This document shows, piece after piece, positions 20,737 to 22,824 of a stretch of DNA of 64,000 nt; positions within the stretch are counted from its first letter, which is position 1; the number at the start of each line of letters is the position of its first letter. The notes below the pieces were generated by a model. That model made no database searches and was not told the DNA's origin. It saw nothing but the letters and a program-made list of their open reading frames with translations. The stretch comes from Pseudomonas sp. Irchel 3H7 (lineage in GTDB: Bacteria; Pseudomonadota; Gammaproteobacteria; Pseudomonadales; Pseudomonadaceae), in the NCBI RefSeq assembly GCF_900187605.1, contig NZ_FYEA01000005.1:310001-374000 (forward strand), written 5' to 3'. A program made the translations under genes and the position numbers.

Positions 20737-22095
20737 TCAGACGGCGAAGAGCAGGTACTCACGCTCCCAGGAACTGATCACGCGCTTGAAGTTTTCATGC
20801 TCGGCCCGTTTTACCGCGACGTAGCCTGTGATGAAGGTTTTGCCCAAGTACTTCTCGATGGTCGCGCTGTTTTCCATACGCTCCAGCGCATCTTCGATGG
20901 TCAGCGGCAGGCGCAGGTTGCGGCGCTCATAACCACGGCCCACCACCGGCGCGCTCGGGTTGAGGCCTTCAACCATGCCGATGTAACCGCAGAGCAGGCT
21001 CGCGGCAATCGCCAGGTATGGGTTGGCGTCAGCGCCCGGCAGGCGGTTTTCCACACGGCGGTTCTGCGGGCCGGCATCCGGTACGCGCAGGCCGACGGTG
21101 CGGTTTTCTTCGCCCCACTCGACGTTCACCGGTGCCGAGGTGTCCGGCAGGAAGCGGCGGAACGAGTTGACGTTCGGTGCGAACAACGGCAACAGCTCAG
21201 GAATCAGTTTCTGCAAACCACCGATGTGGTGCAGGAACAACTGGCTCATGGTCCCGTCTTCATTAGAGAAGACGTTCTTGCCGGTCTCGATGTCGATGAT
21301 GCTCTGGTGCAAGTGCATCGCACTGCCCGGCTCGCCGGTCATCGGTTTGGCCATAAATGTCGCGGCTACATCGTGCTTGAGCGCGGCTTCGCGCATGGTG
21401 CGTTTGAACACCAGGATCTGGTCGGCCAGCGACAGTGCGTCGCCGTGACGGAAGTTGATTTCCATCTGCGCCGTGCCGTCTTCGTGGATCAGCGTGTCGA
21501 GATCCAGCTCCTGCAGTTCGCACCAGTCGTAGACGTCCTCGAACAGAGGGTCGAATTCGTTCGCCGCTTCGATCGAGAACGACTGACGACCGATTTCCGG
21601 ACGGCCCGAGCGACCAATCGGCGGCTGCAACGGATAGTCAGGGTCGTCGCTGCGCTTGGTCAGGTAGAACTCCATCTCCGGCGCCACGATCGGCTGCCAG
21701 CCTTTGTCAGCATAGAGTTTGAGGACTTTCTTGAGGACGTTGCGCGGCGACAGCTCGATCGGGTTGCCTTGCTTGTCGTAGGTGTCGTGGATCACCTGCG
21801 CGGTCGGCTCGATGGCCCACGGCACCATGTACACGGCGTTCTGGTCGGGGCGGCAGATCATGTCGATGTCGGCCGGGTCGAGCAGTTCGTAATAGATGTC
21901 GTCTTCGACGTAGTCGCCGGTCACGGTCTGCAACAGCACGCTTTCTGGCAGACGCATGCCTTTTTCGGCGATGAACTTGTTGGTCGGCGAGATCTTGCCC
22001 CGGGTGATACCGGTCAAGTCGGCGATCATGCATTCGACTTCTGTGATCTTGTGGTCTTTCAACCAATCGGTGAGCTGGTCGAGGTTGTTACTCAT
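20737..22095 (-). CDS. spuB: Gamma-glutamylpolyamine synthetase (glutamine synthetase-like)
   Basis: The 452-residue protein has the glutamine synthetase fold: a short N-terminal beta-grasp ([21 protein letters not shown]), then [40 protein letters not shown] and [31 protein letters not shown]. These hold the metal and ATP ligands. It lacks the adenylylation region of true GlnA and belongs to the PuuA/SpuB/SpuI group that joins glutamate to polyamines. It is first of the intact spu genes on this strand. A perfect small hairpin CCTGACAGAATGTCAGG (22117-22133) lies just upstream of its ribosome site. Confidence 0.93.
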
Positions 22096-22189
22096 AAATG
22101 CCTCTGGGCTGAGTCTCCTGACAGAATGTCAGGCAAAGTTTGACGCTTGGAGCGTCGCGTTAAAGGGGGCTTGCTCGCGCAGTACCGGC

Positions 22190-22546
22190 TTACGCCCGGC
22201 ACCGCGCATAGACAATGAAAGAGGAGCTTACCTGCCCTTTACGCTGGCGTTGCATTTCCTGTGCACAGTCCAGGCGTGCAGAATCATGAGCACGGCTGGG
22301 CAAGCGGCACAGGCTTTGAGGATGAAAGCGATCTATATTGGAAGGGGACGCCATAAACAGGATGCTTTCCCGTACGTCCAGAATATCGGACCCTGGCGCT
22401 TGAACGGCCATGGACGGGAATATCGTCGGCAACTGGCGAGCCATGCTGGCTGCGCTACGGACGGATTGGTCGCCACTGATGTGATGAGCATGCAGACCGG
22501 ACTGTTGCGAGCAGTCGGTGATGCCGATTAACGGCAGGCGAGACAT
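22190..22546 (-). pseudogene. spuA: Remnant of spuA (gamma-glutamyl-GABA hydrolase), catalytic part deleted
   Basis: The open frame starts MSRLPLIGITDCSQQSGLHA and continues through GSDILDVRESILFMASPSNI and RAHDSARLD. This is the unmistakable N-terminus of class I glutamine-amidotransferase-like PuuD/SpuA proteins up to about residue 90. After that the homology stops: the LGICRGFQEMN nucleophile segment and the catalytic His-Glu (HPEW) are absent and the frame ends after 118 codons. A working SpuA needs about 250 residues, yet only 451 bp separate this start from spuB. An internal deletion is the simplest explanation. Position at the head of the spu operon matches intact spuA in P. aeruginosa. 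A second hydrolase elsewhere must do this step if the pathway works. Confidence 0.85.
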
Positions 22547-22824
22547 GAAGCACCCCGGTATTATTGCTGTTATGGGTTTGATCCGAGCTTAGCCTTGTTC
22601 ATTTTTTTACACAACACCCCCGTAAAAAATACAACACGGCCTGCTCAAGCCCGCGGGTGCACAGTCTTCCAGGGACAAAAAAACGCCCGAAAGTGCCCCA
22701 TAAATGCCCTTGCAGCGCTTTTTTAGGGCAAAAAAGGCCTCGCTTGACTTCGGCAGGCCGTTCGGGTTGACTGAAACCAGAAAAGATCAATGATTGATAT
22801 TTTTAACAACAAAGGTGTTGCATC
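22547..22824. promoter_or_regulatory. Divergent promoter region between the spu operon and spuI
   Basis: This 278-bp, locally AT-rich gap contains a repeated ACAACAC word (22611 and 22631, exactly 20 bp apart, each preceded by an A/T run) and a short palindrome ATCAATGATTGAT at 22786-22798 just ahead of the spuI ribosome site. Either could be a regulator site, but I cannot match them to a known polyamine regulator motif. No ORF is supported here. Confidence 0.45.

Follow-up and report, generated by a model that had tools for sequence, protein, structure and literature searches.

We think, with a probability of roughly 0.6, that what is left of spuA at the head of the spuBCDEFGH operon is a translated leader cistron, which would be selected for the openness of its frame and not for the peptide it encodes. 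The remnant lies in a window of 64,000 nucleotides (the whole stretch of DNA that we analysed) from a Pseudomonas-type genome of 6.49 Mb. It has a conserved start region, a frame that is open beyond neutral expectation and a dN/dS not different from 1, and in this leader frame missense change looks neutral while nonsense change is counter-selected.

What is left of spuA in the window?

The remnant appears in the list of the window's open reading frames as a frame of 118 codons that begins with ATG and is situated between spuI and spuB (Table 1). The preliminary description of this DNA had noted that upstream synteny and the start codon are preserved, and indeed the order spuI, spuA, spuB is retained, as is the ATG, 279 nt away from spuI; the distance of 451 nt that it gave from the start of the remnant to spuB is also what we measure, compared with 793–841 nt in 27 intact spuA loci. 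Its claim that some 90 residues match the N-terminus of SpuA holds in that the alignment with intact SpuA extends to about codon 91, with the rider that the Pfam profile Peptidase_C26 is matched weakly, since residues 5–75 align with profile positions 1–74 of 219 at 14.5 bits and the curated cut-off is 20.5 bits. The reported loss of the nucleophile and of the catalytic His-Glu is likewise real, because alignment with intact genes finds in the remnant neither GICRGF nor GVQWHPEW, which we take to be the nucleophile Cys segment and the catalytic His-Glu segment, respectively, of intact SpuA. SpuA/PauD1 is, on our understanding, the gamma-glutamyl-GABA hydrolase of the Peptidase_C26 family (PF07722), and by Pfam score, catalytic segments and purifying selection alike the remnant falls outside the SpuA/PauD/PuuD hydrolases.

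The N-terminus has been kept, as the earlier wording of an N-terminal remnant implied, but it is not all that survives. In the alignment with intact genes the deletion starts at about codon 91 and is followed by a short stretch without clear origin and then by what is left of the former 3' end, which lies beyond the present stop and includes the position of the former spuA stop codon (22131–22129). In a related genome, G383, the remnant frame still continues into the old SpuA C-terminus. The remnant therefore resembles SpuA/PauD1 in its locus, its start region, its first 91 or so codons and its 3' relic, and differs from it in having neither a catalytic core nor detectable purifying selection.

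Table 1. Features at the spuA locus of the window, with positions counted from the first nucleotide of the window
Feature	Position	Strand	Details
spuB ribosome-binding site and start codon, CAGAGGCATTTATG	22093..22106	-	
spuB, glutamine-synthetase-like, 452 aa	20737..22095	-	
3' relic of the old spuA, beyond the present stop	22128..22159	-	DNA alignment to the intact spuA of genome G363
Stem-loop at frame end, UAA stop in loop	22177..22207	-	Pair count in 36 sequences
spuA remnant (candidate leader frame), 118 codons	22190..22546	-	ATG 279 nt from spuI start; open in 36 of 37 cluster members
Island CCGATATTCTGGACG (DILD box)	22375..22389	-	0.99 identical within a variable stretch; window-cluster alignment
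Rfam RF00623, 'Pseudomonas sRNA P1'	22552..22731	+	175 bits, cut-off 100
A-rich AACAGCAATAATA, putative Hfq/Crc-type (ARN)4 site	22559..22571	-	Just 5' of the GGGG ribosome site
Possible promoter TTGTGT-17 nt-TAAGCT, ahead of leader	22586..22614	-	Read by eye; 100% conserved in 36 aligned genomes
spuI, divergent, glutamine-synthetase-like, 458 aa	22825..24201	+	

How widespread is the loss of spuA?

We examined the home locus in 181 genomes, which were chosen and are not a random sample: 36 came from a broad draw, 80 were the next most similar to the window and 65 came from a putida-like query (the upper part of its list, with fluorescens-type rows left out). Intact spuA genes of 250–264 aa occupy 27 of these loci and remnants the other 154, and within the broad draw the corresponding numbers are 9 and 27. 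In the window's own DNA cluster the gene is short in 37 of 37 genomes, one of them (G034) frameshifted; end-to-end matches to the remnant at 89–96% are found in six genomes, and relatives of the remnant turn up at 39 loci, with P. koreensis, P. baetica, P. crudilactis and P. neuropathica among the named records. The proposal of a recent internal deletion is thus right about the internal deletion of the catalytic core and wrong about its age, and a recent strain-specific event is ruled out by remnants throughout the window cluster and at 154 of the 181 loci.

Loss-only parsimony on a short-gene tree built from fragments of spuI and spuB (720 nt) indicates that spuA was lost at least eight times at a support of 95, and 19 times if branches are not collapsed, while three sister pairs of an intact gene and a remnant carry a support of 99–100 on the same tree. 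Two genomes deserve a separate word. G034, which is 95% complete, has frameshifts in the leader and also in spuB that are probably assembly errors, and G220 carries a 119-aa spuA remnant that retains parts around the nucleophile (CRGF), apparently the product of a younger, separate deletion.

Is the frame kept open by selection?

The ATG of spuA has been kept in all 154 remnants, 276–280 nt from spuI, with the same spacing in the 27 intact genes. The remnants are 58–150 codons long, and the distance from their first in-frame stop to spuB ranges from −5 to 144 nt. We clustered the leaders by DNA alone, regardless of frame, and ran simulations of neutral evolution along the tree of each cluster, which gave a stop test on six DNA clusters with 137 genomes (the frameshifted G034 was left out of this test and of the dN/dS estimates). 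Between codon 28 and 100 nt before spuB, a stop is present in 7 of 137 genomes, when 64.8 would be expected under uniform rates (combined P 2e-8) and 67.0 under gamma rates (combined P 3e-7); over the same region the other two frames have stops in 137 of 137 genomes. If the region ends 150 nt before spuB, stops are found in 0 of 137 genomes against 47.4 expected (P 1e-6; three of the clusters fall under 0.05). The depletion is significant singly in five of the six clusters (P 0.0003 to 0.037, both models). The exception is cl4, in which 6 of 16 genomes are interrupted 144 nt ahead of spuB and stops are not depleted (P 0.75–0.76), a result that counts against the leader reading.

Carrying the test to 60 nt before spuB yields stops in 35 of 36 genomes of the window cluster, cl0 (P 0.99), whose stop is at about 94 nt, in none of cl1 (P 0.001), in seven of cl2 (P 0.06) and in none of cl3 (P 0.0003). 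Among the 13 remnants that fall into no cluster, 11 frames exceed 95% of base-shuffled leaders in length (combined P 4e-10, the shuffles preserving base composition only). A first pass of the stop test had given P 0.0005 for group A and 0.10, 0.06 and 0.12 for groups B, C and D, but a peptide motif or a length had served to select these last three, so that openness was partly built in, and they were replaced by the DNA clusters for that reason. Insertions and deletions in the window cluster are multiples of three in 5 of 5 cases within the frame and in 2 of 12 between the frame and spuB (P 0.003). Elsewhere they show no clear frame preference (0 of 5 in cl1, 7 of 12 in cl2, 1 of 1 in cl3, 0 of 1 in cl4 and 2 of 4 in cl5), and in five cl1 genomes a length change of 1 nt has removed the frame end and left a gap of 54 nt.

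Does the peptide matter?

In the window cluster dN/dS is 0.88 (2dlnL against 1 = 1.96), and over its codons 28–100 it is 0.995; the values for cl1, cl2, cl3 and cl5 are 1.04, 0.94, 0.88 and 0.90, none of them significantly different from 1, and that for intact SpuA is 0.14. Purifying selection on the remnant peptide is therefore not detectable in the five clusters tested in this way, with 24 of 29 genomes used in cl1 and 17 of 18 in cl3 so as to have a single frame length. From cl4 only the ten members with 79 codons (group D) were taken, and these give the lowest value of any remnant, 0.76 (2dlnL 2.96), with a borderline 0.71 (2dlnL 3.79) in the middle part of the frame. A search for a conserved arrest or sensor peptide of the TnaC or CruR kind found no long peptide common to different clusters; the clusters have little sequence in common and their C-termini differ, while ILD/IID and the start residues RLP recur in many of them.

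The most serious competitor is of course an ordinary decaying pseudogene, that is, a redundant spuA that is rotting while its frame stays open by inheritance and high G+C. A dN/dS near 1, several losses and the behaviour of cl4 all speak for it, as does the finding that, by hand tally, 128 of the 154 genomes with a remnant but only 10 of the 27 with an intact gene own another SpuA-family copy (Fisher P 2e-6, a test that ignores phylogeny). We nevertheless think it unlikely, because the shortfall of stops persists after composition, tree and rate variation are allowed for, because the other two frames are interrupted in every genome, and because the 75 nt upstream of the leader ATG are near-invariant in the window cluster (examples from other clusters look alike). 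Stops and frameshifts that pile up freely are the mark of a pseudogene, and they are seen in cl4 alone and not overall (7 of 137 against about 65), whereas a frame that is open beyond chance with unconstrained residues, the mark of a leader cistron, is seen in the five other clusters.

Could an RNA or DNA element explain the openness?

Several observations at the nucleotide level bear on this question. The match to the P1 sRNA spans most of the spuI–spuA intergenic region and recurs at 11 of the 13 further loci tested, whether intact or remnant; as it lies on the strand of spuI, the RNA would be antisense to the 5' end of spuA. Inside the otherwise neutral frame, islands at 22375–22389, 22330–22344 and 22195–22254 have a nucleotide identity of 0.91–1.00 in 36 genomes, and the ILD/IID of the first island is found again in many other clusters. 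Such islands hint at a role for the DNA or RNA as well. Ten of the 12 pairs tested in the stem-loop at the frame end form in all 36 sequences, one forms in 29 and one in 7, and the UAA is in the loop in 35 of the 36; two-sided compensation is absent from these 36 sequences, the one pair that varies doing so as G-U/G-C. Consensus folds are more stable than those of column-shuffled alignments, with z of −7.5 in cl0, −5.7 in cl2, −3.3 in cl3, −3.1 in cl5 and −2.0 in cl1 (20 shuffles each, dinucleotides not preserved). A REP element at the 3' end was considered and set aside; GCGAGCAAGCCC occurs three times in the window (at most one mismatch) against 1.0 expected, and 6 of 100 shuffles reach three.

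It could be argued that a cis-acting element of this kind (leader structure, P1 sRNA or binding sites) is what has been kept and that openness is a side effect. The near-total identity of the islands, the stem-loop of the window cluster, the stability of the folds and the cover of the upstream region by P1 are consistent with this, but most of the frame evolves fast and yet without stops, and an RNA element would not shun stops in a single frame, so we consider it decidedly improbable as the whole explanation; the islands and the stop-codon stem-loop may add an RNA-level role to that of a translated leader. Least probable is a short protein that functions under relaxed constraint on its sequence, for although the frame is open in 154 of 154 remnants, ILD/IID and the RLP start recur and dN/dS falls to 0.76 in part of cl4, lengths vary from 58 to 150 aa, the clusters share little sequence and end differently, and a dN/dS near 1 in the clusters tested led us to judge function at the level of the protein unlikely. 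The preliminary description had conceded that a functional protein of this length in close relatives would tell against a deletion remnant, and the same short frame is indeed there, but its dN/dS of about 1 speaks against function.

How might a translated leader serve the operon?

On the leader-cistron reading, the catalytic core of spuA would have been deleted while the upstream control region, the ribosome site and the start codon stayed because the whole operon is driven by them. The frame would then be free of early stops because ribosomes must pass through the leader to, or near, spuB, and the leader peptide would be free to drift. We infer that the leader frame is translated and that the benefit would be coupling to spuB and/or shielding of the leader from Rho polarity. 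What we can see of the architecture is that the leader is the first frame of the operon, behind a ribosome site, and that the start region and the order spuI, leader, spuB are conserved; TTGTGT-17-TAAGCT, which agrees with only 6 of 12 sigma-70 consensus positions and is absent from the promoter-scan output, is at best weakly indicated as the promoter of the leader.

The junction with spuB offers further clues. The leader stop lies at most 10 nt from spuB, or overlaps it, in 56 of 154 remnants, while the gap is about 94 nt in the window and 92–97 nt in 35 of the 37 genomes of its cluster. In the 50 genomes with a gap of 7 nt, the leader stop forms part of the spuB ribosome site CCTGAGG without exception (50 of 50), which, as far as sequence can tell, is the geometry of coupled genes. 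As spuB possesses a ribosome site of its own, it could in principle do without coupling, and this, together with the gap of about 94 nt in the window clade, weighs against the leader reading. An excess of C over G is a hallmark of Rho, and the ratio is 1.28 in the leader against 1.02 in intact spuA and 1.20 in spuB, with a leader peak equal to that of intact spuA; this is mildly raised at most, so we do not claim a Rho site, and a strong Rho (rut) signature was dropped as a candidate on account of this weak signal.

Runs of the (ARN)4 type, which we take to be an Hfq/Crc-type motif, are of particular interest at the start of the leader. A run of at least four ARN is found within 35 nt of the spuA ATG at 111 of 181 loci, the other 70 having only two or three, which is a point against the leader reading, and upstream of spuB the run never exceeds two at any of the 181 loci. 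Hfq/Crc bound at the A-rich start region might use leader translation to hand catabolite repression to the operon. In P. aeruginosa, spuA, B, C and D are listed under post-transcriptional Crc influence in the accessible part of PMC6235884. A more ambitious and quite tentative idea, which we would not yet favour, is that the gene of a defunct enzyme was repeatedly (at least eight losses) turned into a sequence-free translational gate, of which selection would preserve just the start site and the openness, and in which ribosome traffic would pass Hfq/Crc repression on to the polyamine uptake operon.

Are there precedents, and why would it matter?

By analogy, the closest proven case is cbrX-cbrA of P. 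putida, whose leader bears a potential Hfq/Crc site and has to be translated, though its sequence is replaceable (PMC6591292, accessible text). In both, a leader frame would stand behind a promoter with an Hfq/Crc-type site, promoter and site being putative in spu, in the same genus and with the same catabolite-repression logic, translation of the spu leader being presumed. They differ in that cbrX, described as highly conserved in the same text, overlaps cbrA, whereas the spu leader derives from the gene of an enzyme, drifts in sequence and ends 94 nt before spuB in the window. The CruR uORF of Bordetella (accessible part of PMC9426467) and the speF leader (PMC6386406) are alike in that the first frame of an operon controls what follows, in CruR together with Rho; CruR acts via conserved peptide motifs and arrest, unlike the spu leader, which has no conserved peptide. 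The relic of spuA is not mentioned in the accessible parts of PMC6235884, PMC10606097 and PMC11879879, nor is it described in the titles and abstract openings of the spuA literature, a scope that most subscription titles fall outside.

Pseudogenes at the head of operons are usually dismissed, and here missense and nonsense constraint, which are usually confounded, come apart. Confirmed translation of the relic would give annotators a simple signature of a leader cistron, namely a dN/dS near 1 together with an absence of stops, and would make the spu operon a case on which to test how operons persist once their first gene has been lost. Should the gate idea also prove true, openness without sequence constraint would define a recognisable class of bacterial leaders, one that would have been overlooked because its members look like pseudogenes.

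Where has the hydrolase gone?

A search of the genome for a PauD/PuuD homologue, as had been suggested, finds one intact SpuA paralogue (G000:C16:61695-62453, 253 aa), which is 64–73% identical to nine intact home-locus SpuA proteins. It belongs to a second polyamine cluster (L231 2941-13001, on G000:C16), whose further genes are, presumably and by resemblance, putrescine-oxidase-, aldehyde-dehydrogenase-, spuI- and spuF/G/H/D-like and include ABC-transporter genes. The expectation that a hydrolase must be encoded elsewhere is therefore satisfied in the window genome but is not general, since a hand tally with this paralogue as query leaves 26 of the 154 genomes with a remnant without any SpuA-family protein at E<=1e-60. 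One of the 26, G003, has a full-length Peptidase_C26 by Pfam, and among 13 genomes checked by Pfam family six have none at E<=1e-8, with G008 giving a weak partial match only. In view of these 26 genomes and of the six without a Pfam match, some species may use SpuC-type transamination alone.

The arrangement in the window genome is like that of the spu2 cluster of P. putida U/G7, where spuA is missing from the spuBCDEFGH locus and is located in a second cluster; a rearrangement is described there, and the accessible part of that account (PMC10606097) makes no mention of a frame left over at the original place. In the putida-like genomes, which we grouped by DNA similarity to G007, a relic also remains at the old place of spuA, and this adds to the published view that in P. 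putida the gene merely moved.
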